A stretch of 18,446 nucleotides of DNA from Desulfobacterales bacterium (GTDB lineage: Bacteria > Desulfobacterota > Desulfobacteria > Desulfobacterales > Desulfosalsimonadaceae): contig JAGXLE010000002.1 in assembly GCA_018334855.1 (NCBI GenBank), forward strand, positions 1 through 18,446, given 5' to 3'. Under the pieces are notes generated by a model. It had not been told where the DNA came from, made no database searches, and saw nothing but the letters and a program-made list of their open reading frames with translations. Numbering within the stretch: the first letter of the stretch is position 1; each line of letters begins with the position of its first letter. The position numbers and the translations under genes were made by a program. This document shows positions 1 to 18,277 of the stretch, one piece after another.

Positions 1-71
1 CGGCGGGCGGAGATTTGTTCGCTGCTGACCGCTGGTGCGCTCAAATGCGACTCACAAACCCCCGCCCGCCG
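1..71. repeat. GC-rich inverted repeat at the window edge
   Basis: Positions 1-18 and 54-71 are inverted copies matching at 16 of 18 positions, with a 35-base loop. Ten outer bases (CGGCGGGCGG) pair perfectly. The two differences would be G-U wobbles in a minus-strand transcript but A-C mismatches in a plus-strand one. No T-tract follows on either side, so a classical terminator is not supported. The left arm may continue beyond the window. Function is unknown; it could be a palindromic repeat or the structured end of an upstream transcript. Confidence 0.5.
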
Positions 72-191
72 TCCCTTGCCGGCCACCGCCCCGGGTTGCT
101 TTCAGGTCCCATTGCCAGGTGTATAAATGTGGCAAACCCTCTTGAAGGAAAGGGGGCATAAATTCGCAGAAGGTTTGTCCGGGGCGGGGGA

Positions 192-358
192 CAAGGGTGG
201 TTTGCGAAGCTGCATTGAGCGTTTTCGTGTAAGATTCGGCTGCGGCCGGAGCGTAGGAATTTCAAATTGTCTGAGGACGACAGTCCGAGTTTTTGAAATT
301 TCAGCGAAGGCCTCAGCCGAATCCACGAAAACGGTCAGCAGTAAGCAAATCGCCTTTG
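192..358 (+). repeat. Long imperfect hairpin, putative structured RNA or palindromic element
   Basis: The arms run about 192-266 and 292-358. From the outside in: 192-205 pairs with 345-358 (14 contiguous pairs, three of them G-U wobbles in the plus-strand RNA); 209-212 with 336-339; 220-229 with 324-333 (10 perfect pairs); 233-242 with 314-323 (10 perfect pairs, after a 3-base bulge); 244-247 with 309-312; and 258-266 with 292-300 (9 perfect pairs). A small GGAC/GTCC stem (275-278 with 283-286) caps the loop and is flanked by possible tandem G-A pairs. Weaker pairing may extend out to about 180/369. Wobbles that keep the pairing in only one orientation suggest selection on a plus-strand RNA. 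I do not recognise the family; an intergenic repeat family is the main alternative. Confidence 0.6.
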
Positions 359-448
359 CCGCAGCCCTGCGAAGATACTGGAAGCTTGTTATTTTTAAAA
401 GAGCCCGGCTTGCTGCAGATTGAAACACCTTGAATTTGGGTGTAAGCT

Positions 449-478
449 TTGCTACTGGTACTAGATTTTAAACATACT
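449..478 (+). promoter_or_regulatory. Weak sigma70-like promoter candidate for argC
   Basis: TTGCTA (449-454) and CATACT (473-478) are separated by 18 bases; each matches 4 of 6 positions of the -35 and -10 consensus. Transcription would begin near 485, giving a leader of under 30 bases to the argC start at 512. The match is weak, and other hexamer pairs nearby are possible. Confidence 0.25.
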
Positions 479-511
479 TTTGAAATTCATCTTTCCGGTG
501 CAGGAGGATAA

Positions 512-1549
512 ATGATCAGAGCGGCTGTGGCGGGCGCAACCGGTTATGCCGGGGCGGAGCTGGTGAGAATTCTTGCAGGGCACCCCGAGGTGGTATTAAC
601 GGTGCTCACTTCGCGGCAGTATGCGGGCAGGTCTTTTGACAGCATATACCCGGCAATGGCAGGGACTATTACCGCCCAATGCGAGAGCTTTGATGCCGAT
701 TCGGTTTGCGAGCGCGCTGACGTGATATTTACGGCACTGCCGCATAAGCTGCCCATGGATATAATACCCGGTCTCATGGAAAGGGGTGTGAAGGTGGTTG
801 ATTTATCAGCCGACTTTCGGTTCCGTGACCCTGAACTCTATGAAGCGGCCTATCAGCCCCATGCCGCCAGGGATCTTCTCTCAGAGGCGGTTTACGGGTT
901 ATGCGAGGTGTTTGCCGATGACATAGGAAATGCCAGGCTTGTGGGCAACCCGGGATGCTATCCCACCAGCGTGCTGCTGCCTTTGGCGCCGCTGGTTAAA
1001 GCCGGGATGATTGATACCGGCAGCATTATCGCGGATTCCAAATCCGGGGTGAGCGGTGCCGGGCGGAGCCTTAACATGACGAGCCTTTTCTGCGAGGCAA
1101 ACGAATCTTTCAAGGCATACAAGGTGGGCTCACATCGGCATGAACCGGAAATGGAAGAGAACCTGACCAGGATGGCCGGAAAGCCCGTAAACATCAGTTT
1201 TGTTCCTCACCTGGTGCCGATGAACCGCGGCATGCAGACCACTATTTATGCTTCCCTTGCCAGAGATGCGGGAGATGAAGATATTCGGAACTGCATGCTG
1301 GAGTATTATGAGGGATGCAGGTTCATCCGGATTACGCGGGACGGCCGCCCGCCCGATACCAGGGATGTTCGGGGCACCAATTACTGCGATATCGGTTTTG
1401 TTATAGATCGCGATCATGGGCGATTGATTTTAATGTCTGCCATCGACAACCTGGTAAAGGGGGCAGCCGGACAGGCGGTACAAAACATGAATATAATGTG
1501 GGGCCTGGCCGAAACAGTCGGATTAACAGGCGTGCCTTTTCCCGTGTAG
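512..1549 (+). CDS. argC: N-acetyl-gamma-glutamyl-phosphate reductase
   Basis: ArgC catalyses the NADPH-dependent reduction of N-acetyl-glutamyl-5-phosphate to the semialdehyde, the third step of arginine and ornithine synthesis in the cytoplasm. The 345-residue length fits type 1 ArgC. The N-terminus carries a Rossmann nucleotide-binding motif, GATGYAGAEL (8-17). The catalytic cysteine is C149 in GNPGCYPTS. The substrate-binding loop SGVSGAGR (178-185) and the motif GSHRHEPE (206-213) are both present. The start is fixed by a strong AGGAGG sequence (502-507), five bases before ATG. No other arg gene is in the window. A 36-bp gap separates it from the ACT-domain gene, so co-transcription is possible but not shown. 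The identification is secure. Confidence 0.97.
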   Translation: MIRAAVAGATGYAGAELVRILAGHPEVVLTVLTSRQYAGRSFDSIYPAMAGTITAQCESFDADSVCERADVIFTALPHKLPMDIIPGLMERGVKVVDLSADFRFRDPELYEAAYQPHAARDLLSEAVYGLCEVFADDIGNARLVGNPGCYPTSVLLPLAPLVKAGMIDTGSIIADSKSGVSGAGRSLNMTSLFCEANESFKAYKVGSHRHEPEMEENLTRMAGKPVNISFVPHLVPMNRGMQTTIYASLARDAGDEDIRNCMLEYYEGCRFIRITRDGRPPDTRDVRGTNYCDIGFVIDRDHGRLILMSAIDNLVKGAAGQAVQNMNIMWGLAETVGLTGVPFPV

Positions 1550-1585
1550 ACCGGTTTTTAACAAAAACTTACCCGGAGAATTGAG

Positions 1586-2017
1586 ATGAAAATTACCCAG
1601 ATTTCCGTGTTCATGGAAAACCGCTCCGGCCGGCTGGCCAGCATCACCACCGCCCTTGGCAATTCAGGGATAAATATCCGGGCCATGTCGCTCGCAGATA
1701 CTTCCGATTTCGGTATCCTGCGCCTGATCGTATCCGATACTGAAAAAGCCGGCCGCGTATTAAAGGAGCACGGCTTTCTGGTTCGCACGGCCGAAGTAGT
1801 TGCAGTGGCAATACCCGATACGCCGGGTGCCCTGGGCAACCTGCTTGCCATAATGGATTATGCGGATTTAAACGTGGAATACATGTACGCTTTTGTCGAA
1901 AAAGCTCATGACCAGGCCATACTGATTTTCCGTTTCGATGATATGGACAGGGCGATCGACGTTATGCTGGAAAACGATATTAACGTACTCGAAGCCCGCA
2001 AGGTGCTTAGCATGTAG
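1586..2017 (+). CDS. Tandem ACT-domain protein, putative amino-acid sensor
   Basis: This 143-residue protein consists almost entirely of two ACT domains (about 4-65 and 72-140), with the ligand-loop glycines in NRSGRL (G15) and DTPGAL (G81). It has no catalytic or DNA-binding domain, no signal peptide and no membrane segment. ACT domains usually bind amino acids at dimer interfaces. Stand-alone tandem-ACT proteins are often found beside liv transporters and PaaK-like ligases in anaerobes, as here. It precedes livK by 76 bp. By inference it senses an amino acid carried by the transporter, or regulates a partner protein. ATG is preceded by CGGAGA at a suitable distance. Domain assignment is secure; the biological role is not. 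Confidence 0.85.
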   Translation: MKITQISVFMENRSGRLASITTALGNSGINIRAMSLADTSDFGILRLIVSDTEKAGRVLKEHGFLVRTAEVVAVAIPDTPGALGNLLAIMDYADLNVEYMYAFVEKAHDQAILIFRFDDMDRAIDVMLENDINVLEARKVLSM

Positions 2018-2026
2018 TCGGGTGCC

Positions 2027-2057
2027 GGGGCCCGGTACACGGATTACGGCGGGCCCC
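2027..2057 (+). other. GC-rich hairpin between the ACT gene and livK
   Basis: GGGGCCC (2027-2033) and GGGCCCC (2051-2057) form a perfect 7-bp stem around a 17-base loop, starting ten bases after the ACT-gene stop. No T-run follows, so it is not a standard terminator. It could stabilise the upstream message end or reduce read-through into the liv genes. Confidence 0.4.
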
Positions 2058-2093
2058 TAATGGCAGGAAACCGTTTAAATAAGGGGGTAGACA

Positions 2094-3248
2094 TTGAAAA
2101 ACAGGGTTTTATCAGCAATCATTGCGGCAATGTTTATTGTTTCATTTGCATCGATTCTTCACGCCGGGGAAAAGGAGCCGTATCATATCGGCTGCGCTTT
2201 TGCCATTACCGGCAAAGCGGCCTGGCTCGGGGAACCGGAGAGAAATACCGCGGTAATGATAGCCGAGCAGATCAACAAAGCCGGCGGTATCAACGGCCAT
2301 GAACTGGTGCTGCACATAGAAGACACCCAGGGCAGCAACACGCGCGCGGTCAATGCAATCAAGAAGCTGATCAAGAAAGACAACGTGTGCGCCGTTATTG
2401 GTCCCTCGCGTAGCGGAACCACCCTTGCCTCCATCCCGGTGGTCCAACAGGCAAAAGTTCCCATGCTTTCCTGTGCCGCGGCGGCAAGCATTACCAATCC
2501 GCCTGAAAAGCGTGAATGGGTTTTTAAGATGGGCCAGAACGACAGCGATGCCGCGCGCCGCATTTATGAGCACATGCAAGAAAACGGTATTGAAAAAGTC
2601 GGTGTTATAACCGGCACGACCGGTTTCGGTGATGCGGGCCGCACCCAGCTAAAAAACCTGAAGGACGAATACGGCATTGAAATCGTGGCCGATGAAACAT
2701 ATGCGCCCGGAGATACGGACATGACCGCGCAGTTGATAAGTATCCGCAAATCCGGGGCCCAGGCGGTTATCAACTGGTCAATCGTCCCGGCCCAGTCCAT
2801 CGTGCCCCAGAACATGGACCAGCTAAAGATGGATATCCCCCTGTATCAGAGCCACGGCTTTGCCAACATCAAGTATGCCGAGTCTGCCGGGGAGTCGGCA
2901 GAGGGATCTATTTTTCCCGCCGGCAGGATCATGGCGGCAAAAACAGTGCCAGCGGATCATCCCCAGAAAGAGGTCCTGATCTCCTATAAAAATGCCTATG
3001 AGTCCAGCTATGACGACCAGGTCACCACTTTCGGGGGTCATGCCTATGATGCGATGCATATTATAGCAAAGGCGCTGGAAAAAGTGGGCGACAACCCCGC
3101 AAAAATAAAAGAAACCATTGAAAACATGGAATTTGTGGGGATCAGCGGTGTGTTTGAATTTTCAGAAAACGATCACTGCGGCCTGGATAAAACGGCTTTT
3201 GAAATGATGACCGTCAAAGACGGCAGGTTCGTGGTGCTGGATCGCTAA
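2094..3248 (+). CDS. livK: Branched-chain amino-acid type ABC transporter, substrate-binding protein
   Basis: This 384-residue periplasmic binding protein (family Peripla_BP_6, LivJ/LivK-like) captures the substrate and delivers it to the LivHM channel. Residues 1-24 form a Sec signal peptide: K2 and R4, a hydrophobic core, then a likely cleavage site after LHA (22-24). The mature protein begins with the family's YHIGCAFAITG strand and contains the characteristic VIGPSRSGTT segment. The start is TTG, supported by AAGGGGG (2081-2087) at six bases' spacing; the next in-frame ATG would cut into the signal peptide. It is followed after 2 bp by livH. The ligand cannot be read from sequence: Leu/Ile/Val, aromatic amino acids or aromatic acids are all possible for this family. 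Confidence 0.92.
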   Translation: MKNRVLSAIIAAMFIVSFASILHAGEKEPYHIGCAFAITGKAAWLGEPERNTAVMIAEQINKAGGINGHELVLHIEDTQGSNTRAVNAIKKLIKKDNVCAVIGPSRSGTTLASIPVVQQAKVPMLSCAAAASITNPPEKREWVFKMGQNDSDAARRIYEHMQENGIEKVGVITGTTGFGDAGRTQLKNLKDEYGIEIVADETYAPGDTDMTAQLISIRKSGAQAVINWSIVPAQSIVPQNMDQLKMDIPLYQSHGFANIKYAESAGESAEGSIFPAGRIMAAKTVPADHPQKEVLISYKNAYESSYDDQVTTFGGHAYDAMHIIAKALEKVGDNPAKIKETIENMEFVGISGVFEFSENDHCGLDKTAFEMMTVKDGRFVVLDR

Positions 3249-3250
3249 AC

Positions 3251-4150
3251 ATGGAAACCGGGCTGATTACCGACCTGCTCCAGTTCCTTTTTATGGGGAT
3301 CCAGAGGGGCGCGATATATGCCATGGTGGCAATAGGTTTTAACATGATCTATAATTCCACCGGCATAATCAATTTCGCTCAGGGCGAGTTTGTGGTCCTG
3401 GGCGGCCTCATGATGGTCTCGCTGACCATGAGTTTAAAACTTTCGCTGGTTTTCGCATTCCTTATGTCAGTGGCTTTTGTAACCGTGGTGGGCATTTTAA
3501 TGGAGCGCCTGACCATAAACCCGGTCAGGCGGCCCACGGTGCTGCGCCTGATTATAATAACCATTGCGGTCTCCATGCTGTTTAAGGGTTCTGCGATGTG
3601 TTTCTGGGGCAAAGGATCCCATTATATGCACCATTTTACTGATGCGCCGCCGCTGGAGGTAATGGGTGCAACAATTCTGCCCCAGTCATTATGGGTGATA
3701 GGTATCCTGGCGCTGGTGGTGATCGGCTATGTCATGTTTTTTAACTGGACCATGACCGGAAAATGCATGCGGGCATGTGCAATCAACCGGGATGCAGCCC
3801 GCCTGGCGGGCATAAACGACCGCAGGATGGTGATGCTTTCCTTTGCCCTGTCTGCGGCCATAGGTGCGGTTGCCGGCATTATTATCACCCCGATTATCCA
3901 GATGGATTACGCCCGGGGAGCGCTGCTGGGTTTGAAAGGATTCGGTGCGGCGGTGATCGGGGGGCTGGGCAACTCCATGGGAGCCGTTGCCGCCGGCCTG
4001 CTGCTCGGTATTATAGAGGCCCTGTCCGGAGGCTTTATTTCTTCTCATTACATGGATGCAATTGCTCTGTTGGTGATGCTTGGCGTGCTCTTTGTACGGC
4101 CCGGAGGCTTGTTTGGCAGTTCTGAAGAAGTTCGGTTAAAAGAATTCTAG
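3251..4150 (+). CDS. livH: Branched-chain amino-acid ABC transporter permease LivH
   Basis: LivH is one of two inner-membrane permease subunits of a Liv-type importer. The 299-residue protein is almost wholly hydrophobic, with several membrane segments. Family landmarks are GIINFAQGEFVVLGG (38-52), the cytoplasmic coupling segment around ACAINRDAARLAGIN (175-189), where the ATPases dock, and GLKGFGAAVIGGLGN (227-241). The length is typical. Its ATG lies 2 bp after the livK stop, and livM follows after 1 bp, indicating translational coupling in one operon. Confidence 0.95.
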   Translation: METGLITDLLQFLFMGIQRGAIYAMVAIGFNMIYNSTGIINFAQGEFVVLGGLMMVSLTMSLKLSLVFAFLMSVAFVTVVGILMERLTINPVRRPTVLRLIIITIAVSMLFKGSAMCFWGKGSHYMHHFTDAPPLEVMGATILPQSLWVIGILALVVIGYVMFFNWTMTGKCMRACAINRDAARLAGINDRRMVMLSFALSAAIGAVAGIIITPIIQMDYARGALLGLKGFGAAVIGGLGNSMGAVAAGLLLGIIEALSGGFISSHYMDAIALLVMLGVLFVRPGGLFGSSEEVRLKEF

Positions 4151-4151
4151 C

Positions 4152-5168
4152 ATGCACGCAAAAGACTATATCGGATTTTCCATACTTATCGGGATGGTAC
4201 TCGTAATGCCCCATCTGGTGGGCAACGATTACTATGTAGGGGTGCTGGTGTTTGCAGCATTCAACTGTCTTGCCTGCATCGGGCTGTGCCTGCTTATGGG
4301 TTATGCGGGTCAGATATCTCTTGGACACGGCGCATTTATTGCCATAGGGGCCTATGCCTCGGGTCTGCTGACAACAAAAATGGGGTGGTCGCCCTGGACG
4401 GCCATGGCCGCCGGGGCGTTTCTGGCCATGGCAATAGCTTTTATTGTCGGTATTCCCACCTTGAGATTAAAAGGCCATTATCTTGCCATGGCCACCCTGG
4501 GTTTTGCCTCGATTGTCCATATAGTTGCCGTGGCGGCGGTTGACTTGACCGGCGGTCCGGCCGGAGTCCTCGGCATTCCCAGGATCGGCCTGTTCGGCTT
4601 TAGCCTCGATTCCGATATTCAGTACTATTATTTTGCCTGGACTGCAGTTGTGATAGGACTTTACCTGGCCTTTAACATTATTGACTCCAGGATCGGAAGA
4701 GGCCTGCGGGCAATCCACGGCAGCGAGGACGCAGCATCGGCGGCCGGGGTAAACACGTCCGTTTACAAGATCCAGGTTTTCGCCTTAAGCGCTGTTTATG
4801 CCTCGGTCAGCGGGAGCCTTTACGCATATTATGTAAACTACATCGATCCCGGCCCTTTTGATGTCATGCACTCGATTTTGCTGGTAACCATGGTGGCGGT
4901 AGGAGGGCTGCGCCACCTCTGGGGGGCTGTAATCGGCGCGCTTCTGCTTTCTCTGCTGCCGGAAATGCTTTCCTTTGCAGCCGCTCCACTCCAGGCGATC
5001 GGCATTGAGTACAAGCCTGACTATGATATTATAGTATACGGAACCATATTGCTGCTAATCATGCTGTTTCTGCCCGAAGGGCTGTTTGCGGGTCTGGCTG
5101 CGGGGTGCAAATCGGCCTGGAATCTGTTTAAAAAGATTTTAAAGGGGCGGCCGTTTGTACGGGAATAA
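4152..5168 (+). CDS. livM: Branched-chain amino-acid ABC transporter permease LivM
   Basis: LivM is the second inner-membrane permease subunit. The 338-residue protein has many hydrophobic segments. It carries the family motif GYAGQISLGHGAFIAIGAY (50-68) and the ATPase-contacting segment RGLRAIHGSEDAASAAGVN (183-201). The C-terminus ends in a short basic tail. Its ATG is one base after the livH stop, and its last 14 bases overlap the start of livG. That overlap is typical of tightly coupled transporter operons. Confidence 0.95.
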   Translation: MHAKDYIGFSILIGMVLVMPHLVGNDYYVGVLVFAAFNCLACIGLCLLMGYAGQISLGHGAFIAIGAYASGLLTTKMGWSPWTAMAAGAFLAMAIAFIVGIPTLRLKGHYLAMATLGFASIVHIVAVAAVDLTGGPAGVLGIPRIGLFGFSLDSDIQYYYFAWTAVVIGLYLAFNIIDSRIGRGLRAIHGSEDAASAAGVNTSVYKIQVFALSAVYASVSGSLYAYYVNYIDPGPFDVMHSILLVTMVAVGGLRHLWGAVIGALLLSLLPEMLSFAAAPLQAIGIEYKPDYDIIVYGTILLLIMLFLPEGLFAGLAAGCKSAWNLFKKILKGRPFVRE

Positions 5169-5922
5169 TCAAATACTAAAACTTGAGAAGCTGCGAAAGG
5201 TCTTCGGCGGCGTGGTCGCCCTGGATGATCTTTCTTTTGAGGTGGGTACAGAGACGATTACCTCTGTGATCGGGCCCAACGGGGCGGGCAAGACAACCGT
5301 GTTTAACCTGCTCAGCGGATATCTGCAGCCCACCAAAGGGGCCATGATATACAAAGACAGAAGCCTGCAGGGAGAAAAACCCTATAAAATAGCTTCTCTG
5401 GGAATCGGCAGAACATTTCAGAACGTTCAGATTTTTCCTGACATGACAGTTCTGGAAAACGTCATGGTTGGCAGACACCTTCGTTCCCGGACAGGAATGC
5501 TTTTTTCCGCGTTAATTCCCTCTTTTTTAAGGCCGGAGGAAAAACGCATAAGAGAAGATGCGGTTCGCTGCCTTGCCTTTGTGGGTCTTGAGCATGCAGC
5601 AGACACCCCAGCCGGCTCGCTTCCCCTGGGAAACCAGCGGATGCTGGAAATCGCCAGGGCTATGGCTATCGAGCCTGATCTGCTGTTGCTCGATGAGCCG
5701 GCTTCCGGATTAAACAGCCGGGAGACCATCGCCATGGGAGAATTAATTAACAGGATCCGTGAAAAACGGGTAACCGTGATGCTGGTGGAACATGATATGG
5801 AGCTGGTAATGGAGATTTCCGACCGGGTGGCTGTCATGAATTTCGGGCGGCTTATAGCAGAAGGCACGCCCCGCGAGGTTCAGGAAAATCAGGAAGTAAT
5901 TTCAGCATATCTTGGAGAATAA
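5155..5922 (+). CDS. livG: Branched-chain amino-acid ABC transporter ATP-binding protein LivG
   Basis: LivG is one of the two cytoplasmic ATPases driving the LivHM permease. In the 255-residue protein, Walker A is GPNGAGKTT (40-48), the Q-loop lies in GRTFQN (85-90), the signature is LPLGN (156-160) and Walker B ends in LLLLDEP (176-182). The H-loop lies in VEHDME. The signature differs from the usual LSxGQ, but variants beginning LPxG are common in LivG, so loss of function is not implied. The start is TTG at 5155, supported by AAGGGGCGG just upstream; no nearby in-frame ATG would keep the conserved N-terminal strand. It overlaps livM by 14 bp. Confidence 0.95.
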   Translation: MYGNNQILKLEKLRKVFGGVVALDDLSFEVGTETITSVIGPNGAGKTTVFNLLSGYLQPTKGAMIYKDRSLQGEKPYKIASLGIGRTFQNVQIFPDMTVLENVMVGRHLRSRTGMLFSALIPSFLRPEEKRIREDAVRCLAFVGLEHAADTPAGSLPLGNQRMLEIARAMAIEPDLLLLDEPASGLNSRETIAMGELINRIREKRVTVMLVEHDMELVMEISDRVAVMNFGRLIAEGTPREVQENQEVISAYLGE

Positions 5923-5934
5923 GGGTTTGATGCC

Positions 5935-6672
5935 ATGCTTCGCCTGGTAAATGTCAACAGCTATTACGGACTGGTCCACGTTTTAAAAAATGTTTCCATG
6001 CACGTGGGAGAAGGCGAGGTAGTTACCATCATCGGAGCCAACGGGGCGGGCAAGACCACCACCCTTCGTACTGTCAGCGGTCTGCACCCGGTAAAAAGCG
6101 GCCGGATTTTTTTTGAGGACCGAGATATAACGGGCTGGCCGGCAGAAAGACTGGTGGATCTCGGCATAGCCCATGTTCCCGAGGGCCGCCAGATTTTCAG
6201 TCCCATGTCTGTTTACGATAATCTTGAACTGGGCGGCCATCTGATATATAAGCATTACGGCAGGAAACGGCTGAAGGCTGAAATCGACGAGGTCTTTGCC
6301 ATGTTTCCCGTACTGCGCCAGCGCCGCCGGCAGTATGCAGGAACGCTGTCGGGAGGCGAACAGCAGATGCTTGCAATCGGCATGGCGCTGATGTCAGGGC
6401 CTCGCATGCTGCTCTTGGATGAGCCGTCAATGGGGCTTGCGCCCATGATCGCAAGGGATATATTTGCCCGCGTATCCCGGCTCAGGCAGGAGCGTAATCT
6501 TACGGTGCTTTTGATAGAACAGAATGCCAGGGCGGCCTTAAATATTTCCCACCGGGGATACGTGATGGAAACCGGGCGTATCCTGCTCGAAGAAGATGCA
6601 GGGGCCCTGCTTGCCAACCCGGAGGTAAAAAGGGCATACCTGGGCCGCGACCAGCGGGAAATATGGGAGTAA
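5935..6672 (+). CDS. livF: Branched-chain amino-acid ABC transporter ATP-binding protein LivF
   Basis: LivF is the second ATPase, pairing with LivG. In the 245-residue protein, Walker A is GANGAGKTT (34-42), the canonical signature LSGGEQQ is at 138-144 and Walker B is MLLLDEP (158-164), followed by the LivF-typical SMGLAP. Unlike LivG, its signature motif is standard. The gene lies 12 bp after livG and 29 bp before the PaaK-like gene, completing a five-gene transporter with no missing component. Confidence 0.96.
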   Translation: MLRLVNVNSYYGLVHVLKNVSMHVGEGEVVTIIGANGAGKTTTLRTVSGLHPVKSGRIFFEDRDITGWPAERLVDLGIAHVPEGRQIFSPMSVYDNLELGGHLIYKHYGRKRLKAEIDEVFAMFPVLRQRRRQYAGTLSGGEQQMLAIGMALMSGPRMLLLDEPSMGLAPMIARDIFARVSRLRQERNLTVLLIEQNARAALNISHRGYVMETGRILLEEDAGALLANPEVKRAYLGRDQREIWE

Positions 6673-6677
6673 CTCCG

Positions 6678-6690
6678 CTGTATTATACAG
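6678..6690. promoter_or_regulatory. 13-bp palindrome between livF and the PaaK-like gene
   Basis: CTGTATTATACAG is a perfect palindrome around a central T. It lies five bases after the livF stop and directly before the GGGGG ribosome-binding site (6690-6694) of the next gene. It could be an operator or a small hairpin affecting translation. It is not a standard LexA box, because the half-site spacing is too short. Chance occurrence is possible. Confidence 0.25.
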
Positions 6691-6701
6691 GGGGAAAATA
6701 A

Positions 6702-7994
6702 ATGACATACTACAACGAACAAATCGAATGCATGGACAAAGAAATTTTGTCCCAGGTTCAGCTCGAAGGCCTTCAGGCGACCCTTAACAGGGCTTACAAG
6801 AATGTCAGACACTACCGTAAGCTGTTCAGAGAAATCGACTTCATGCCCGAAGACCTCACATCAATGGATATGCTGCCGCGCCTGCCGCTTCTGACCCGGC
6901 GTGATTTGAGCGCAAATTATCCCTACGATATGTTTGCCGTGCCCCTGCGGGAAGTGGTCCGTCTTCATACGGCATCATTTAACTTCGAGGAGCCCGTGGT
7001 CACAGGGTTTACCGGAAATGACATGAGCAACTGGGCCGAGCTCACCGCCAGAAATCTTGCCGGTATAGGGGTGACAAGGGACGATGTGGTCCAGATAGCA
7101 CTTACATTCGGCATCATGTCGGGTCCTTTCGGCATCCAGCTCGGAGCGGAAAAGATCGGCGCTTCCGTGATTCCGATTTCCGCCGGCAAGCTGCGGGAAC
7201 AGGTTAAAATCATGAGGGATTTCAAAACTTCGGTTCTGGTCTCCACCCCGACCGTGGCGCTGGGACTGATACGCTCCATGGATGAGCTGGGGGTTGATCC
7301 CAACGGGCTGACATTGAAATGCGGTATTTTCGGGGCCGAACCTTGGGGGGAGCAGACGCGGCAAAAGATTGAATCAAGCTTTTATATCACTGCAACAGAC
7401 ACCTATGGGCTGACAGAAATTTTCGGCCCCGGCGTGGCCTGGGAATGCCCGGCGAAAAAAGGACTTCATATCGCCGAAGACCACTTTATCGCCGAAATCA
7501 TCGATCCGGAAACCTGCGAAGTTCTGCCGCACGGACAGGAAGGGGAACTTGTAATAACAACCATCGGAAAGGAGGCTTTCCCTTTAATCCGGTTCAGAAC
7601 GGGAGATCTTACCAGGATTGATAACACCCCGTGCGAATGCGGCCGAACCCATTGCCGGATTTCCCGGATATTTAAGCGGTGCGATGACGTTGTCGTTGTC
7701 AGGGGAACCAGTATTACTCCGGAACAGATCGGGCGCATACTGACCGGTATAAGCGGATTTGAGCCGCGGTTTCAGATGGTGGTCGACCGGCAGGAGGACA
7801 GGGACCAGTTAATGGTTGTCATCGAAGCCGCTGACCAGTACTTTTTTGATGAAATGAAAAAACAGCGTCGTTTTGTGGAAAATCTTCACAGGCAGATATC
7901 TGAATTTGTAGGTTGGGAAGTAAATGTCCGCTTGGTGGAGCCGGGAACATTCGACCCAAACCGAAGGGTGGTGGATAATCGCACTTTTAAATAG
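6702..7994 (+). CDS. paaK: PaaK-like adenylate-forming protein (phenylacetate-CoA ligase family), divergent
   Basis: This 430-residue protein is a clear PaaK-family member. It has TYGLTEIFGPGV (234-245), GLHIAEDHF (254-262), FRTGDL (298-303), the cysteine-containing CECGRTH (311-317) and a C-terminal small domain. Family enzymes activate phenylacetate or related acids to CoA thioesters through an acyl-adenylate. Two hallmarks are missing. Where PaaK has SSGTTGKP, this protein has ASFNFEEP (91-98), with no insertion or deletion. The end reads DPNRRVVDNR where a GKAxRVxD-type lysine segment is usual. The flanking sequence is well preserved, so this is not a pseudogene. It may be a subfamily with altered chemistry or a non-catalytic role. 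The symbol is given at family level only. It is the last gene of the liv operon, 29 bp after livF. Confidence 0.85.
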   Translation: MTYYNEQIECMDKEILSQVQLEGLQATLNRAYKNVRHYRKLFREIDFMPEDLTSMDMLPRLPLLTRRDLSANYPYDMFAVPLREVVRLHTASFNFEEPVVTGFTGNDMSNWAELTARNLAGIGVTRDDVVQIALTFGIMSGPFGIQLGAEKIGASVIPISAGKLREQVKIMRDFKTSVLVSTPTVALGLIRSMDELGVDPNGLTLKCGIFGAEPWGEQTRQKIESSFYITATDTYGLTEIFGPGVAWECPAKKGLHIAEDHFIAEIIDPETCEVLPHGQEGELVITTIGKEAFPLIRFRTGDLTRIDNTPCECGRTHCRISRIFKRCDDVVVVRGTSITPEQIGRILTGISGFEPRFQMVVDRQEDRDQLMVVIEAADQYFFDEMKKQRRFVENLHRQISEFVGWEVNVRLVEPGTFDPNRRVVDNRTFK

Positions 7995-7995
7995 C

Positions 7996-8140
7996 CAGTG
8001 CCCATCCGGAAATGGCTAATTTGCCCAATTTCTGCGTCAGGCTCAAATTTTAATCCTCAAAATACTTTGAGTATTCCTGCGGTTAAAATTTTCGCCTTCC
8101 TTGAACTTGAACAAATTATCCGATTTCTGGATGGACACTG
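7996..8140. repeat. 145-bp imperfect palindrome, MITE-like or structured RNA element
   Basis: The element starts one base after the stop codon of the PaaK-like gene. Its ends, CAGTGCCCATCC (7996-8007) and GGATGGACACTG (8129-8140), are inverted copies matching at 11 of 12. Similarity between the arms continues inward, including TAATTTG (8017-8023) against CAAATTA (8112-8118) and AAATTTTAA (8045-8053) against TTAAAATTT (8083-8091). The centre is a small palindrome, CTCAAA/TTTGAG (8056-8071). No obvious target-site duplication is visible and no gene lies inside. It fills most of the 183-bp gap before folD. A non-autonomous mobile repeat and an RNA-structured spacer both fit. Confidence 0.65.
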
Positions 8141-8177
8141 CTGTATTTACTGTAACTCAAAGAAAAGGAGTGTAGAA

Positions 8178-9086
8178 ATGACGGCACAACTAATCAAAGG
8201 AACGGAAATCAGGGAACAGATTCTTGATGAAATTGCAGAAGAGGTCAAGCAGATCAAGGAAAAGCACAATGTTGTCCCGGGCCTGGTGACAATACTGGTC
8301 GGAGAAAATCCGGCCTCGGTATCTTATGTATCCCTGAAGGTAAAAACAGCAGAGCGTCTGGGATACAAGGAGGTTCAGGACAATCAGCCTGAAGACATTT
8401 CCGAGGCCGACCTGCTTGCATTAATTGACAAGTACAACAATGACGATTCCATTCACGGCATCCTGGTACAGCTCCCCCTGCCGGATCACATCAACGATAA
8501 GAAGGTGCTAAATGCCATTGATCCGGACAAGGATGTGGACGGATTTCATCCGGTCAATGTAGGCCGGTTGATGATCGGCGGATCCGAGGTCAAGTATCCC
8601 CCGTGCACGCCGGCCGGCATCCAGGAAATGATCATCCGGGCAGGAGTGCAGACAAGCGGCGCTGAAGTCGTTGTGGTGGGCCGCTCCAACATTGTGGGGA
8701 AGCCCATTGCAATGATGATGTGCCAGAAGGGCGAGGGTGCCAATTCAACTGTCACCATCGTCCATACCCGGACCAAGGACCTGGAGTTCCACTGCAAGCG
8801 CGCAGATATCCTGATAGTGGCAGCCGGGGTCCCGGGCCTGGTCAAGCCCGAGTGGATCAAGGAAGGCGCCTGCGTCATCGATGTCGGAGTAAACCGGGTC
8901 GGCGAGAAGATCAGCGAGAAGACGGGCAGAAAGGTGGCAATCCTGCGCGGCGACGTGGATTTTGACGCTGCAAAGGAGATCGCCGGCTACATCACCCCGG
9001 TTCCAGGGGGCGTTGGACCGATGACTATTACGATGCTGATGAGAAATACCCTGAATGCGCTGAAATTCCGGCTTGGTTTAATGTAG
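8178..9086 (+). CDS. folD: Bifunctional methylenetetrahydrofolate dehydrogenase/methenyltetrahydrofolate cyclohydrolase
   Basis: FolD interconverts 5,10-methylene-, 5,10-methenyl- and 10-formyl-tetrahydrofolate using NADP in the cytoplasm. In anaerobes it may also serve the methyl branch of the Wood-Ljungdahl pathway, an inference here. The 302-residue protein is family length. Visible motifs are SYVSLKVK with Y50 and the catalytic-type K54, QLPLP (98-102), DVDGFH (119-124), PPCTPAG (141-147), GRSNIVGKP (168-176) and PVPGGVGPMT (274-283). The frame stays open upstream to 7998, but that extension lies in the palindromic element and is unlike FolD. ATG 8178 has a strong AAAGGAG sequence (8164-8170) and is the right start. 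Confidence 0.97.
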   Translation: MTAQLIKGTEIREQILDEIAEEVKQIKEKHNVVPGLVTILVGENPASVSYVSLKVKTAERLGYKEVQDNQPEDISEADLLALIDKYNNDDSIHGILVQLPLPDHINDKKVLNAIDPDKDVDGFHPVNVGRLMIGGSEVKYPPCTPAGIQEMIIRAGVQTSGAEVVVVGRSNIVGKPIAMMMCQKGEGANSTVTIVHTRTKDLEFHCKRADILIVAAGVPGLVKPEWIKEGACVIDVGVNRVGEKISEKTGRKVAILRGDVDFDAAKEIAGYITPVPGGVGPMTITMLMRNTLNALKFRLGLM

Positions 9087-9118
9087 TTGCCTTATACCAT
9101 AGTTTCTGGTAATCTGAT

Positions 9119-9170
9119 AAGCTGAAAAACCTCGAATTATAATCAGGCCGGGGTTTTTCAGCTTTTTTCT
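9119..9170 (+). terminator. Strong intrinsic terminator after folD
   Basis: AAGCTGAAAAACCTCG (9119-9134) pairs with CGGGGTTTTTCAGCTT (9149-9164), giving 16 pairs of which one is a U-G wobble, around a 14-base loop. A run of T (9163-9168) follows. The position 33 bases after the folD stop and the long stem make this a convincing Rho-independent terminator. The near-symmetric A-run and T-run mean it could also work in the reverse direction. Confidence 0.9.
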
Positions 9171-9208
9171 TTGCGCCGGGCGTTGCCGGGGGAAAATACC
9201 CGCGGTAC

Positions 9209-9237
9209 TTGACTTAAAGGTAAAGTATGCACATTAT
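9209..9237 (+). promoter_or_regulatory. Candidate sigma70-like promoter for secA
   Basis: TTGACT (9209-9214) and CATTAT (9232-9237) are 17 bases apart. The -35 matches 5 of 6 positions; the -10 matches 4 of 6. TATATT (9235-9240) is an alternative -10 with a longer spacer. The site lies between the folD terminator and secA, where a new promoter is expected. It sits inside a CCGCGGTA/TACCGCGG inverted pair (9200-9207 and 9243-9250). Confidence 0.5.
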
Positions 9238-9323
9238 ATTCTTACCGCGGATGTATGGCACCCGCCTGATTTTAAATCAATTAAATATTGAAATGATACA
9301 AAATATCAAGGAAATATAGAAGT

Positions 9324-11861
9324 ATGGCTGCACTTGCCGCAGGCAATTTATTGACAAGAGTATTTGGGAGCAAAAACGAGCGGGTATTGAAAAAGCTCTA
9401 CCCGACCGTGGATGCAGTAAATGAGCTCGAGCCGAAATTTGAGAAAATGACCGATGCCGAGCTCGCAGAACAGACCCGTATATTTAAAGAAAGGTATCAG
9501 AAAGGCGAAACACTGGAAGATCTTCTGCCCGAGGCCTTTGCAGTGGTTCGCGAAGCATCAAAGCGTACGCTCGGAATGCGGCACTTTGATGTTCAGATCC
9601 TGGGCGGAATTGTTTTGCACCAGGGAAATATAGCTGAAATGAAGACCGGTGAAGGAAAGACCCTGGTGGCCCCCCTTGCTTTATATCTCAATGCTCTTAC
9701 CGGCAAGGGCGCTCACGTGATCACGGTAAACGATTATCTGGCAAGCCGTGATGCTGAATGGATGGGCAGAATTTACAGTTTCCTGGGCATGAGCGTGGGC
9801 AACATCGTTCACGGAATGGATGACCAGGAGCGTAAACAGGCTTATGCCTGCGATATAGCCTACGGGACAAACAATGAGTTCGGCTTTGACTACCTGCGCG
9901 ACAACATGAAATTTGACAAGGAGTCGCTGGTACAGCGGGAACTCAACTTTGCCATAGTAGACGAAGTAGACAGCATTTTAATTGACGAGGCCCGCACCCC
10001 GCTAATTATTTCAGGTCCTGCGGAAAAATCCACCCATCTCTACTATCAGGTCGACAGCATAGTTCCGCATTTAAAAGCCGAGGAGCACTACACGGTCGAT
10101 GAGAAGGCCAAGTCCGTGGCCCTGACAGAAGAAGGGGTGGCAAAGGCCGAGACCCTGCTCAAGGTGGAAAACCTCTATGATCCCAAAAACATCGAGCTGC
10201 TCCATCATGTCAACCAGGCCTTAAAAGCCCACGCCCTGTTTACCCGGGACGTGGACTACATTGTCAAGGACGGCCAGGTAATCATAGTCGACGAGTTTAC
10301 CGGCCGGCTTATGCCGGGTCGGCGCTACAGCGAGGGCCTGCATCAGGCCCTGGAGGCCAAGGAAAAAGTCAGGATCGAAAACGAAAACCAGACCCTTGCA
10401 ACCATTACGTTCCAGAATTTTTTCCGGATGTATAACAAGCTTTCGGGCATGACCGGTACTGCCGATACCGAGGCTGCAGAGTTCAAAAAAATCTACGATT
10501 TAGACGTTGTTGTTGTGCCCACCAATGAACCGATGATCCGGGTCGATCATCCGGACATGATTTATATGACCAAGGAGGAGAAATACCAGGCCGCCATTGA
10601 AGAGATCGTCGAGCTCCACCGCATAGGCCGCCCCGTGCTTGTGGGCACGGTCTCAATTGATGTTTCCGAGTATCTTAGCAGCCTGCTCAAAAAGCGCGGT
10701 ATAAAGCACAATGTTTTAAATGCCAAGAATCACGAGGCCGAAGCTGAAATTATCGCCAATGCCGGGCAGGAGGGCGCGGTCACCATTGCAACCAACATGG
10801 CCGGCCGCGGCACAGACATCGTGCTCGGCGAAGGCGTGGCCGAACTCGGGGGGCTTCACATCCTTGGTACGGAGCGGCATGAAAGCCGCCGTATCGACAA
10901 CCAGCTCCGGGGCCGCTCCGGGCGGCAGGGTGATCCCGGATCTTCGCGTTTTTATTTGTCCCTGGAAGACGATCTGCTCAGGATTTTCGGCGGGGAACGT
11001 ATCTCCGGATTCATGAACCGCATGGGAATGGGCGACGGAGAGCCCATTGAGCACAATATGATTTCCCGGGCCATTGAAAACGCACAGAGCAAGGTCGAGG
11101 GGCACAATTTTGATATCAGAAAGCAGCTGCTCGATTTTGACGATGTGATGAACCAGCAGAGGGAGGTGATCTACGAGCAGCGCCAGCAGGCATTGAGCGA
11201 TGAAAGCTTAAAACCCGTGATCACCGAGATGATCCGGGAAAAATCAGATAAGATTGCATGGGAATATGCAGATGAAAAAACGCCTTCAGACCAGTGGGAT
11301 TTAAAAGGGCTCTCAGATGCCGTATTCGGGCAGTTTAACCTCAAGCTCGATTTCAGCCCGGAAAAGCTGGAGGGATACGGCCCGGAAGATCTTTCCGATC
11401 TGATCTATGATTCGGCCATGGCCGCTTACCAAAACAAGGAAAAGATGATTCCGGAAGACGATTTCCGCCATCTCGAGCGCATCATCATGCTCCAGACAGT
11501 CGACAGCCTGTGGAAGGATCATCTGCTGTCCATGGATCACCTGAAAGAAGGCATCGGGCTGCGGGGCTACGCACAGCAGGATCCTTTGATCATATACAAG
11601 AGGGAAGCCTTTGCAATGTTTCAGGAAATGGTTGACCGGATCAAAGAGGAAACTTTAAAGATCCTGTTCCGGGTCCAGATCGCTCCTTCTGCCGGTGTGG
11701 ACGATCTTGTGCAGCCCAAAGAACAGGAAATGACCCTATCCCACGGCGACGGAGAGGCCGGGGCCAAACAGCCCCATAAACGCAGCAGTGAAAAAATCGG
11801 CCGCAACGCTCCCTGCCCGTGCGGCAGCGGCAAGAAGTACAAGAAATGCTGCGGCCGGTGA
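9324..11861 (+). CDS. secA: Preprotein translocase ATPase SecA
   Basis: SecA is the motor that drives unfolded preproteins through the SecYEG channel at the inner membrane. The 845-residue protein is full length. Visible features are Walker A MKTGEGKT (106-113), the DEVD Walker B (213-216), the FDYLRDNM segment (188-195) and the second RecA-like domain with NMAGRGTDI and [13 protein letters not shown]. The scaffold and wing regions are followed by a C-terminal SEC-C zinc motif, [13 protein letters not shown] (831-843), which in relatives binds zinc and contacts SecB or ribosomes. ATG 9324 follows AAGGAA at moderate spacing. The gene is flanked by terminators and so is probably transcribed alone. 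No SecM-like upstream gene is visible. Confidence 0.98.
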
Positions 11862-11885
11862 TGGCCACAGCGCATCTTTTCCAGC

Positions 11886-11925
11886 CCGGCAGGCCTGAGC
11901 TTCTAAACTCCAGCCCGGTTTTTTT
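11886..11925 (+). terminator. Probable intrinsic terminator after secA
   Basis: An imperfect stem between 11886-11899 and 11908-11918 (CCGG...GGC...GAG against CTC...GCC...CGG, with bulges) is followed by seven T residues (11919-11925). The position, 24 bases after the secA stop, fits. The same stretch contains a 10-base direct repeat TCCAGCCCGG (11880-11889 and 11909-11918). The stem is less regular than the one after folD. Confidence 0.45.
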
Positions 11926-11939
11926 ATGTGGAATTTGGC

Positions 11940-11969
11940 TTGAATTTTGAGCCGCAATAATTTTATAAT
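11940..11969 (+). promoter_or_regulatory. Candidate sigma70-like promoter for clpS-clpA-aat
   Basis: TTGAAT (11940-11945) and a perfect TATAAT (11964-11969) are 18 bases apart. This follows the secA terminator and precedes clpS by about 115 bases, leaving an AT-rich leader in which I see no further conserved element. The perfect -10 makes it the best promoter match in the window. Confidence 0.6.
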
Positions 11970-12083
11970 CTCTATTAACAGGCTGACAGGGTCAGTATCC
12001 GTGTTTATATTAAAATTAAATCATCTGGTTTTACACGAGATTATTTTTTCGCAAACAGATGTTTTCGGTAAAGCGGGGTAACA

Positions 12084-12398
12084 ATGCAGCAGGACAAACC
12101 GGGAACAGAAGAAAAAGTAATTTCAGAAACCCGGAAATCACTCAAGGAGCCGCCCATGTACCGGGTGCTGCTCCATAACGACGATTACACCACCATGGAC
12201 TTTGTGGTGGAGCTTTTGATGAAGGTGTTTCAGAAATCCTTTGAAGAAGCCACACACATCATGCTACGGGTTCACAGGGCCGGTGTAGGGGTGTGCGGTG
12301 TGTATACATACGAAGTGGCGGAAACAAAAATCGAGACGGTGCATCAGCTTGCCAGGGAAAGAGGGTTTCCGCTGAAAAGTTCTATGGAAAAGGTATAG
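12084..12398 (+). CDS. clpS: ATP-dependent Clp protease adaptor ClpS
   Basis: ClpS binds proteins bearing destabilising N-terminal residues (Leu, Phe, Trp, Tyr) and delivers them to ClpAP. The 104-residue protein has a flexible N-terminal tail (about 1-22) and then the ClpS core. Residues that in characterised ClpS bind the N-degron amino group are present: N32, D33, D34 in HNDDYTTM and H64 in RVHRAG. M38 matches the hydrophobic specificity gate. The second motif, GVCGVYTYEVAETK (69-82), is intact. It lies 3 bp before clpA. All key residues are kept, so it should be a functional N-recognin. Confidence 0.97.
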   Translation: MQQDKPGTEEKVISETRKSLKEPPMYRVLLHNDDYTTMDFVVELLMKVFQKSFEEATHIMLRVHRAGVGVCGVYTYEVAETKIETVHQLARERGFPLKSSMEKV

Positions 12399-12401
12399 CA
12401 T

Positions 12402-14642
12402 ATGATCAGCAAAGGACTGAGTATTGTTCTAAGCCAGGCAGTAAAGGAGGCCAGAAAGCGCCGGCATGAGTATGTCTGCGTGGAACACATGCTCTATGCC
12501 ATTATTCACGACAGCGTGGGAATAGAAATAATTGAAAGCTGCGGCGGCAACGTTGAAAACATCCAGAACGAGCTTGAAAAGTTTTTCGATGAAAAATTAG
12601 ACAAGGTTCCGGAGACAAACGAATATATCCTACAGCAGACCATCCGTTTTCAGAGGGTTATCCAGCGGGCAGTCAACCATGCCAGATCTGCTGAGAAGGA
12701 ATCGGTATATGTTGGCGACATCCTGGCTTCAATTCTCGAAGAGCGAAAATCCCACGCCGCTTACTTTATGGCTGCCGAAGGCATTACCCGCCTCGATGTT
12801 TTAAACGTGATTTCACACACCTCCTCGGGAGAAATGTTTAAGGAAAATTCGGATACGGGGATTGCCACCGGCAGGAAAAACAAGAAAAAAGAATCTGATC
12901 CGCTGGAGATATATGCCGTTGACCTGGTGGAAAGGGCCATGTGCGGCAAGCTCGATCCCTTAATCGGCAGACAGACCGAAATGGACCGCATTGTCCAGGT
13001 CCTGTGCCGCAGAAGAAAGAATAATCCGGTTTTTGTAGGCGATCCAGGGGTAGGCAAAACAGCAATGGCTGAAGGTCTTGCCCAGAGAATAGCAGAAGGG
13101 GGAGTACCGGACCTGCTGGAAGGCGCCCGGATATATTCGCTTGACCTGGGGGCGCTTCTGGCCGGAACCAAGTACAGGGGCGATTTTGAGCAGCGCTTGA
13201 AATCAGTGATCTCGGAGTTGCAGAAACGGGAAAACGCGATCCTCTTCATTGATGAGATCCACACCATCGTCGGGGCCGGGGCCACCAGCAGCGGTTCCAT
13301 GGATGCTTCAAACATTTTGAAACCGGCCCTGGCAACAGGAGAGATGCGCTGTATCGGATCGACCACTTACGAGGAATTTAAAAATTATTTCGAAAAAGAC
13401 CGGGCATTTTCGCGCAGGTTTGAAAAAATAGAAATTTCCGAGCCGTCAATAGATGATACTGTTAAAATTCTTAAAGGTCTTAAAGGCTATTACGAGGACC
13501 ACCATCGCATAGATTACACGGAGCCGTCTTTAAAGGCTGCAGCCGAGCTTTCGGCCAAGTATTTGACAGAGCGTTATCTTCCTGACAAGGCCATTGACGT
13601 TATTGACGAGGCAGGGGTGCTGCTCCGTCTCACCGGTTCCGAGCGCAGAAAAAGGGTGCAGCCATCTGATATCGAAAAAGTGGTGGCAAAGATATCCCGG
13701 GTCCCTGCGCACAGGATGACCTCGTCTGACAAGACAAATCTTGCCAGCCTGGAAGAGCGCTTAAAGCAGAAAATTTTCGGCCAGGATGACGCTATAGGTT
13801 CGCTGGTAACCGCGATTAAGCGGTCCAGGGCCGGGCTTGGCGCCCCGGAGCGGCCCATCGGCTCGTTTCTGTTTACCGGTCCTACAGGGGTCGGCAAGAC
13901 CGAGGTGGCCAGGCAGGTGGCCAGTAACCTGGGAGTCAGCTTCCTTCGCTTCGATATGAGCGAATACATGGAAAAGCATGCAGTGGCAAGGCTTATCGGT
14001 GCACCGCCGGGTTATATCGGTTTTGACCAGGGAGGTCTTCTTACGGATCAGATCCGTAAAAATCCGTATGCGGTCCTGCTGTTAGATGAAATAGAAAAAG
14101 CACATATAGACATGTACAACATCCTGCTGCAGGTAATGGATCATGCGGCATTAACGGATAACAACGGCAAAATCGCCGATTTCAGAAACGTGATCCTGAT
14201 TATGACCTCCAATGCCGGGGCCCGTGAGATGGCATCAAATACCATCGGTTTCGGCGGAACACAGGCCGATGATCCGGGCAGCAAGGGCAGAAAGGCTGTT
14301 GAAAGTTTTTTCAGCCCGGAATTCCGCAACCGTCTGGATGATATTATCAATTTCCGCCCCCTGACCCTTGAGATCATGGAGATGGTGGTTGATAAATTTA
14401 TGGATGAGCTGGCACCTCAGCTTGCGGCCAAGAAGGTTTCGGTCCGCCTATCTGCCAATGCCAGGCGCTGGCTGGCGAAAAAGGGCTATGATCCGCATTT
14501 TGGAGCAAGACCGCTCGATCGCCTGATCGAAAAGGAAATAAAGGACGTGCTTACAGACGAGATACTGTTTGGAAAGTTGACCAGGGGCGGAGAGGTCTTT
14601 GTCAAGGTAAAGGACGACCGGCTGATGTTTAATTTCAGCTGA
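12402..14642 (+). CDS. clpA: Clp protease ATP-binding subunit ClpA
   Basis: ClpA is the AAA+ unfoldase that feeds substrates, including those delivered by ClpS, to the ClpP peptidase. The 746-residue protein has the Clp N-domain (about 1-145), AAA-1 with Walker A GDPGVGKT (213-220) and Walker B ILFIDE (280-285), and AAA-2 with GPTGVGKT (493-500) and LLLDEIEKAH (559-568). No long ClpB-type middle coiled coil is present, which separates it from ClpB. The ClpP-docking tripeptide IGF is at 615-617, so a ClpP partner is expected elsewhere in the genome. It is coupled to clpS (3-bp gap) and aat (6-bp gap). Confidence 0.97.
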   Translation: MISKGLSIVLSQAVKEARKRRHEYVCVEHMLYAIIHDSVGIEIIESCGGNVENIQNELEKFFDEKLDKVPETNEYILQQTIRFQRVIQRAVNHARSAEKESVYVGDILASILEERKSHAAYFMAAEGITRLDVLNVISHTSSGEMFKENSDTGIATGRKNKKKESDPLEIYAVDLVERAMCGKLDPLIGRQTEMDRIVQVLCRRRKNNPVFVGDPGVGKTAMAEGLAQRIAEGGVPDLLEGARIYSLDLGALLAGTKYRGDFEQRLKSVISELQKRENAILFIDEIHTIVGAGATSSGSMDASNILKPALATGEMRCIGSTTYEEFKNYFEKDRAFSRRFEKIEISEPSIDDTVKILKGLKGYYEDHHRIDYTEPSLKAAAELSAKYLTERYLPDKAIDVIDEAGVLLRLTGSERRKRVQPSDIEKVVAKISRVPAHRMTSSDKTNLASLEERLKQKIFGQDDAIGSLVTAIKRSRAGLGAPERPIGSFLFTGPTGVGKTEVARQVASNLGVSFLRFDMSEYMEKHAVARLIGAPPGYIGFDQGGLLTDQIRKNPYAVLLLDEIEKAHIDMYNILLQVMDHAALTDNNGKIADFRNVILIMTSNAGAREMASNTIGFGGTQADDPGSKGRKAVESFFSPEFRNRLDDIINFRPLTLEIMEMVVDKFMDELAPQLAAKKVSVRLSANARRWLAKKGYDPHFGARPLDRLIEKEIKDVLTDEILFGKLTRGGEVFVKVKDDRLMFNFS

Positions 14643-14648
14643 TGAATA

Positions 14649-15368: not shown

Positions 15369-15434
15369 TGCATGTAAAATCCGGATAGTTCTGCCGAGCA
15401 TCCTTTTTGAACCTGTTTTTTTATGGAGGAAAAT

Positions 15435-16394: not shown

Positions 16395-16436
16395 CAATTT
16401 TGATTATTTACGAAAAAATTCGAATGGAACCTGAAA

Positions 16437-17723: not shown

Positions 17724-17743
17724 ACACAGGGGATAGAAAGAAA

Positions 17744-18268: not shown

Positions 18269-18277
18269 TGGTATTGT

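Follow-up and report, generated by a model that had tools for sequence, protein, structure and literature searches.

The window considered here is a stretch of 18,446 nucleotides from a Desulfobacterales bacterium (family Desulfosalsimonadaceae; assembly GCA_018334855.1, contig JAGXLE010000002.1, positions 1 to 18,446). It encodes a PaaK-family protein of 430 residues, referred to as W, which follows the genes of a Liv-type importer of the ATP-binding cassette (ABC) kind and is predicted to be adenylation-dead. In W catalytic residues of the P-loop and of motif A10 are lost, other motifs of the active site are retained, and the ratio of nonsynonymous to synonymous substitution rates (dN/dS) is low; therefore, W is a maintained paralogue that is predicted to be adenylation-dead, i.e., a pseudo-ligase under purifying selection. 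It combines two traits that characterize a pseudoenzyme, the loss of catalytic residues throughout its clade and purifying selection on the gene. As to function, on balance we favour a reading, built on sequence comparison, in which W would bind a ligand without catalysing a reaction and act as a dedicated partner of both the Liv-type (HAAT) importer and an ACT-domain protein.

Replacement of the P-loop

The comparison of aligned rows includes 33 rows of W, 36 rows of intact PaaKs, 37 rows of a second class of dead proteins (X3) and five intermediate rows; three short pieces (L060 and two of L072), the loci of genomes that were fetched twice (L006-L009; L113-L115) and L010 are left out of the counts (labels with G, C and L denote genomes, contigs and loci). 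The relevant features of W are the following.

6702..7994, forward strand: W, PaaK-family protein, 430 residues, predicted adenylation-dead, from Pfam and TIGR scores and a full-length PaaK fold
6972..6995, forward strand: A3/P-loop site, residues 91-98, ASFNFEEP as compared with SSGTTGKP by alignment, predicted to form a near-continuous beta-hairpin
7398..7418, forward strand: A5 motif DTYGLTE, residues 233-239, retained
7602..7604, forward strand: residue 301, Gly as compared with Arg of intact PaaKs (RTRD to RTGD), from the row comparison
7605..7607, forward strand: Asp302 of motif A7, retained
7677..7706, forward strand: A8 hinge RCDDVVVVRG, residues 326-335, retained
7941..7982, forward strand: C-terminal PGTFDPNRRVVDNR, residues 414-427, with the A10 loop deleted (SEGKA in the genome's own canonical PaaK), from the row comparison

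W scores 43.6 bits against PF00501 and 58 bits against PF14535, both above the Pfam gathering thresholds, and by these domain scores as well as by its fold it belongs to the ANL superfamily. Against TIGR02155 it scores 401.7 bits, under the cut-off of 646.3 bits, which is a weak test as the intact PaaK of the same genome (627.4 bits) also falls below.

Positions 6966-7013 of the window are codons 89-104 of W (H T A S F N F E E P V V T G F T). These residues align without gaps to PaaK2 (2y4o), PaaK1 (2y27) and BT_0428 (4r1l), and ASFNFEEP falls on HASSGTTGKPTVVGYT in 2y4o and 2y27 and on a GTTGN loop in 4r1l. An earlier note, made from the sequence of the window, had described a replacement of SSGTTGKP by ASFNFEEP in register and without insertion or deletion; this description holds, as do the flanking identities that it listed (H89, S92, P98, V100, G102 and T104) in comparison with 2y4o and 2y27. 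The substitution is not unique to this strain, a possibility that the note had named as one that would speak against its proposal: in the best 120 of 7,965 homologues found (60-98% identity to W), residues 91-98 are glycine-free without exception, compared with two loop glycines in all 36 intact PaaKs. Frequent forms of the loop in these homologues are A-S-[FIV]-N-F-[DE]-[DE]-P and P-A-L-T-L-D-K-P. One of the W homologues is from Desulfonema ishimotonii.

The reversal of charge from Lys to Glu, which the earlier note mentioned, is seen in W but does not characterize the family. A Lys occupies position 97 in 19 of the best 120 homologues and in 7 of the 33 W rows, and because it is Gln in 11 of 36 otherwise intact PaaKs, the P-loop Lys seems to be dispensable there. 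The charge reversal was consequently rejected as the key change; judging from the alignments, the conserved change in the W family is the loss of the Gly/Thr loop and not that of the Lys charge. In ANL enzymes, mutations in the P-loop reduce the activity 14- to 2,000-fold or abolish it, and mutation of the Lys reduces it only 4-fold (PMC8388817 in PubMed Central, PMC).

Loss of the A10 lysine and retention of the adenosine side

In ANL enzymes the first half-reaction relies on the P-loop and the A10 lysine, and motif A5, the A7 Asp and motif A8 also hold adenosine monophosphate (AMP) and shape the step that involves coenzyme A (CoA). The roles of motifs A3-A10 used here are family knowledge, taken in part from PMC8388817, in which the A10 Lys is described as the key catalytic residue. 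In the W of the window the A10 loop is deleted together with this lysine, and the tail signature GK, found in 36/36 intact rows, is present in only one of the 33 W rows (L103), in 0/5 intermediates and in 0/37 X3 rows, as well as in 1 of the best 120 homologues of W. With neither a P-loop nor the A10 loop that carries the catalytic lysine, W is predicted to form no acyl-adenylate from ATP, and the loss of the ability to adenylate is well supported by the sequence. It appears very improbable that W works as an ATP-dependent CoA ligase by holding ATP in some unusual manner, given that the glycines of the P-loop are absent along with the A10 lysine and R301 and that a canonical ligase is present separately in the same genome.

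Residue 301 is Gly in all W (33), intermediate (5) and X3 (37) rows and in 120/120 of the best homologues, and Arg in all 36 intact rows. Because Gly is the general ANL state at this position, (S/T)GD (PMC8388817, Table 2), the change from RTRD to RTGD accompanies the other losses but, taken alone, does not mark a protein as dead. A role for R301 was not found in the passages available from the literature.

Residues G211, E213, D233, Y235, E239, D302 and D328 are retained in 33/33 W rows, G335 in 32 and R326 in 31 (Lys in the other two). Asp302 is presumably the ribose contact. Of the 130 columns with at least 95% conservation in intact PaaKs, 88 are retained in W. Not retained are columns 136, 139 and 185, which are Y, F and Y in 35, 36 and 36 of the 36 intact rows, respectively, and which we take to form the aryl pocket of PaaK. 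The statement of the earlier note that the rest of the adenylation fold is well kept thus applies to the fold but not to the active site, where the A10 loop is missing, RTRD has Gly in place of its second Arg and columns 136, 139 and 185 are changed.

Purifying selection

For eight genome pairs, the dN/dS of W is 0.049-0.079, as compared with 0.028-0.054 for the canonical PaaK (seven measurable of eight pairs) and 0.055-0.161 for X3 (seven of eight pairs). Because several pairs have high dS, the less saturated pairs carry most weight, i.e., for W, G020-G021 (dS 0.85, ratio 0.049) and G029-G035 (dS 0.46, ratio 0.073). The source genome is a draft, 62% complete and divided into 287 contigs, which speaks for decay or a sequencing or assembly artefact as the explanation of the loop in W. 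This explanation can be dismissed with near certainty, as the same state is found in all 120 of the best homologues, from many other contigs, the dN/dS values are in the range given above, and none of the listed W matches in the family genomes contains an internal stop. Decay and a strain-specific error were ruled out on the basis of the homologues and of dN/dS, and the opinion of the earlier note that decay is unlikely is borne out.

Predicted structure

The AlphaFold model of W displays the full-length PaaK fold, in which the loop region consists of strands 85-95 and 97-104 and the block 91-100 has a predicted local distance difference test (pLDDT) value of 57. The model matches 2-hydroxyisobutyryl-CoA ligase in the thioesterification state (6he0) over the whole length, with a template modelling (TM) score of 0.90 and a root-mean-square deviation (rmsd) of 2.7, as compared with TM 0.71-0.72 and rmsd 11.7 for the post-adenylation structures 6hdx and 6hdw. 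The enzyme in 6he0, which is 26% identical to W, is an active two-step ligase, in contrast to what is predicted for W. With the PaaKs (TIGR02155; 2y27/2y4n/2y4o and 4r1l; 36-40% identity) W shares the full-length fold, A5, the A7 Asp, A8 and the PF14535 domain; it differs from them in the absence of a P-loop and an A10 lysine, in RTGD instead of RTRD, in an altered aryl pocket and in being tied to a transporter operon.

The same data bear on an alternative in which W is an enzyme for the second half-reaction or for other chemistry of adenylates or CoA thioesters, such as exchange between acyl-AMP and CoA, acyl transfer or hydrolysis. Such an enzyme could do without the lost adenylation elements (the P-loop and the A10 lysine) and would make use of what is kept, i.e., A5, the A7 Asp, A8 and the 88 highly conserved columns, and the model resembles the thioesterification state. 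We consider this alternative unlikely since the three aryl-pocket columns are not kept, no new catalytic group is identified in W and, to our knowledge, there is no source of free acyl-AMP.

The importer operon

The gene order in the window is argC, the gene of the tandem ACT-domain protein, livK, livH, livM, livG, livF, W, folD and secA, where the names argC, folD, secA and livHMGF are given by eye from the translations.

512..1549, forward strand: argC, the upstream neighbour in many relatives
1586..2017, forward strand: tandem ACT-domain protein, PF19571 (ACT_8), 100.5 bits with a cut-off of 23.5
2094..3248, forward strand: livK, solute-binding protein, nearest solved relatives including CouP; NF011933 (NCBIfam) 80.1 bits, below the cut-off
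3251..4150, forward strand: livH, permease, with orthologs only in W genomes among the 36 family genomes
4152..5168, forward strand: livM, permease, recurring in the family loci
5155..5922, forward strand: livG, ABC ATPase, recurring in the family loci
5935..6672, forward strand: livF, ABC ATPase, 29 bp upstream of W, the nearest gene found upstream in 32/32 readable W loci
8178..9086, forward strand: folD, the downstream neighbour in most family loci, start inferred

This order recurs across the family as far as the contigs extend, with no ACT match in L049; neighbouring genes were marked with reference proteins only. The nearest gene found upstream of W is livF in all 20 readable loci of the family, the window included, and in all 12 outside the family; two W loci cannot be read upstream, one that ends inside W (L060) and one that ends before livF (L097). 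In the fetched loci the gap between livF and W is 8-500 bp.

A W gene is found in 22 of the 36 family genomes (in two of them as fragments). A LivH of the window type (at least 73% identity) is present in 20 of these 22, compared with none of the 14 genomes that lack W, in which the best LivH is at most 51% identical. The two W genomes without this LivH, G022 and G025, are 71% and 86% complete, respectively. In a survey of the class (genomes at least 90% complete plus the source genome, 242 in total, with at most seven candidates scored per genome), a W-type match is present in at least 28 genomes, of which 13 belong to eight other families, and G046 has an intermediate. In the locus L107, which is outside the family, a PaaK gene and an ACT gene are located downstream of W. 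In Bacteroides a gene annotated as "amino acid-binding protein" follows PaaK, and its product is perhaps of the same kind as the ACT protein.

The binding protein of the importer provides a lead to what may be transported. LivK of the window scores 136.5 bits against the CouP group (3tx6/4f8j/4fb4) and 33.4 bits against the E. coli LIV-binding protein 2liv. For LivK of the canonical PaaK operon described below, the nearest structure is 7ylt (165.8 bits), followed by the CouP group. Structure 4f8j is CouP with coumarate and 4fb4 is cited as a caffeate complex; CouP binds coumarate and also 4-hydroxyphenylpyruvate (PMC3610893). In R. palustris, among 22 tested binding proteins annotated for branched-chain amino acids or amides and having ligands unlike the annotation, very few shifted with Leu, Ile or Val (PMC3223731). 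The importer is perhaps one for aryl acids, which fits its position beside aryl-CoA ligases; because the similarity between LivK and CouP is distant, this reading is only a lead. The CouPSTU aromatic-acid ABC importer has in common with the present system the alignment of LivK to CouP, and differs in that the part available of the cited account mentions neither an ACT protein nor a dead ligase (PMC3610893). In three W operons of genus g10 (L051, L053 and L057) there are two livK genes in tandem.

The canonical PaaK operon and the relatives of W

On contig C49 the source genome harbours a canonical PaaK, with SSGTTGKP and SEGKA, followed by ACT, livKHMGF and then X3. The full order from PaaK to X3 is found in 18 of 20 further stretches from the family, most of which were selected for the known presence of the two end genes; the exceptions are L079, with only PaaK and ACT, and L080, where the contig ends after livM. 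The canonical PaaK of G023 (L072:1665-2956) is found in two overlapping frames despite an assembly of only eight contigs.

X3 defines a second class of livF-linked dead PaaKs (L011:496-1776, reverse strand; homologues L116-L131), which reaches beyond the class Desulfobacteria within the phylum. Like W, with which it is 38% identical, X3 follows livF in the family operon, carries Gly301 and, in 37/37 rows, has no A10 lysine. Unlike W, it retains one or more glycines in the loop, which is of the TAPGTTRNP type, most of its rows end before A10, and part of the adenosine pocket is lost (D233 in 0/37, G211 in 1/37 and E213 in 26/37 rows).

In another alternative, W (or X3) would serve as a regulatory subunit, forming a mixed dimer with the catalytic PaaK and tuning it. 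The biological unit of PaaK is a dimer (PMC4498308), the position of the P-loop in PaaK1 makes dimerisation necessary (PMC8388817), X3 is encoded in the operon of the canonical PaaK, and 21/22 family W genomes contain a match of the PaaK type that is 44-49% identical to W, one of these matches being broken into two frames and one containing an internal TAG. We nevertheless regard a mixed dimer as quite unlikely, as no catalytic PaaK is found in the W operon of the family loci, and W tracks its own Liv system, while a PaaK-type match is also present in 10/14 genomes without W.

The nearest relatives of W on a tree are two intact proteins, L141 and L142, and the intermediates L134, L135, L139, L140 and L108, which come from other parts of the phylum. 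Six of these seven have livF just upstream, and none is found in the short locus L134. The intact proteins keep GTTG and GKA, the intermediates keep SSG (with the loops SSGTSENP, SSG-TAKP and SSGTM[TV]NP) and have lost the A10 lysine, and W has lost both. In G046 (L108:5703-10081) there are two livF genes, and behind each lies a PaaK-like protein of its own. One of these proteins has SAGTTVKP, with the loop Lys kept, but no A10 lysine, and the other has SSGTSENP.

The tree was calculated from 76 rows after removal of the loop and C-terminal columns, and the branch supports are those of a quick tree. The W rows form one clade (23 rows, support 100), the sister of which is the five intermediates, followed by intact PaaKs with GTTG loops and GKA; the branch that joins the livF-linked intact PaaKs L141 and L142 with W has a support of 88. 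The 26 rows of X3 make up a clade of their own, and in a careful, unconstrained tree X3 does not join W and the intermediates. In the quick tree the four outgroup rows are not placed together on a single side, and that region is uncertain on account of two long X3 rows. Placing all dead rows (54/76) in one clade costs 5.21 log units, with p 0.351 in the approximately unbiased (AU) test, and because this test does not reject a single dead clade, the dead copies may have one origin or two. If the tree is right, the loss of A10 and the change of R301 would, by parsimony, have preceded the full replacement of the loop in the W line.

Proposed role of W

In the favoured explanation, i.e., W as a non-catalytic partner of the importer, W would hold a conformation similar to the thioester state and bind a pathway ligand that contains adenosine (acyl-CoA, acyl-AMP or AMP) without making it. 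It would then report this ligand to the importer, perhaps together with the ACT protein, such that the uptake of an aryl or related acid would be matched to its activation by the catalytic PaaK encoded elsewhere in the genome. Because the adenylation elements are lost and the AMP-side motifs are kept, the simplest reading is that W may bind a ligand of the adenosine type without producing it; the company of W, i.e., its own importer and an ACT protein, would then point to a role in sensing or gating of uptake. The missing adenylation activity is what we infer from the sequence, and the identity of the ligand and the regulation of transport are suggested more weakly. The earlier note offered two alternatives, of which a non-catalytic partner of the ACT/Liv system fits the livF linkage, the co-occurrence with a particular Liv system and the retained adenosine side; a different mode of nucleotide binding or a different chemistry is less likely because a further, separate element of adenylation, the A10 lysine loop, has disappeared as well as the P-loop. 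That note did not anticipate the loss of A10, the canonical PaaK of the genome, X3, the livF-linked intact and intermediate relatives or a binding protein closer to binders of aromatic acids than to those of branched-chain amino acids.

Several observations weigh against the partnership with the importer. The model of W has low confidence at residues 136-142 and in the loop, and AlphaFold may favour a thioester-like conformation whatever the PaaK. X3, in which part of the adenosine pocket is missing, speaks against an AMP-type ligand common to all dead copies. An ACT gene does not accompany W everywhere, with no match in L049 and L104 nor upstream of W in L107, and because neighbours were marked with reference proteins, a small unrelated gene in the larger gaps could go unseen. 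W is present in 4/9 genomes of its own genus, and W and its operon are dispensable, as indicated by this patchy distribution. The partnership of W with ACT or LivFG is a putative one, proposed from the arrangement of the genes.

A broader proposal is that PaaK-ACT-Liv operons of the phylum have, once or several times, turned acid-CoA ligases into dedicated non-catalytic sensor subunits of ABC importers, where the dead ligase, in the thioester conformation, would read the acyl-CoA, acyl-AMP or AMP state and gate uptake together with ACT, such that a pseudo-synthetase of the substrate would regulate its transporter. We hold this generalization to be tentative and rather doubtful. If the sensor reading is true, it couples the uptake of acids to the state of CoA activation, a mechanism that was not found in searches of the open-licence PMC literature. 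Neither was a description of a PaaK-family or ANL pseudoenzyme tied to a Liv importer found in these searches, the titles and abstract openings of the listed papers on dead ANL proteins contain nothing on PaaK, and in the available part of PMC6925170, paaK and livF occur together only as names in a gene table. Among the best 120 of the 7,965 homologues, several are publicly named "phenylacetate--CoA ligase", and because of such naming, pathway reconstructions of these bacteria would include as an aryl-CoA ligase a protein that is probably unable to activate any substrate. The livF-linked series, which runs from intact copies through intermediates to those with the loop fully replaced, illustrates how an ANL enzyme can give up the first half-reaction while much of the nucleotide pocket stays, and makes this loss amenable to test.

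Other features of the window

Positions 149-401 of the window are part of a dispersed repeat of about 250 bp, with copies at G000:C49:8565-8797 (86%) and G000:C209:3514-3698 (92%). The latter copy also matches the opposite strand (71%), as if it contained an inverted repeat. Positions 15768-16394 encode a DUF3786 protein (PF12654, 151.7 bits), which is flanked by HIT-like and leuC-like genes, both identified by eye.
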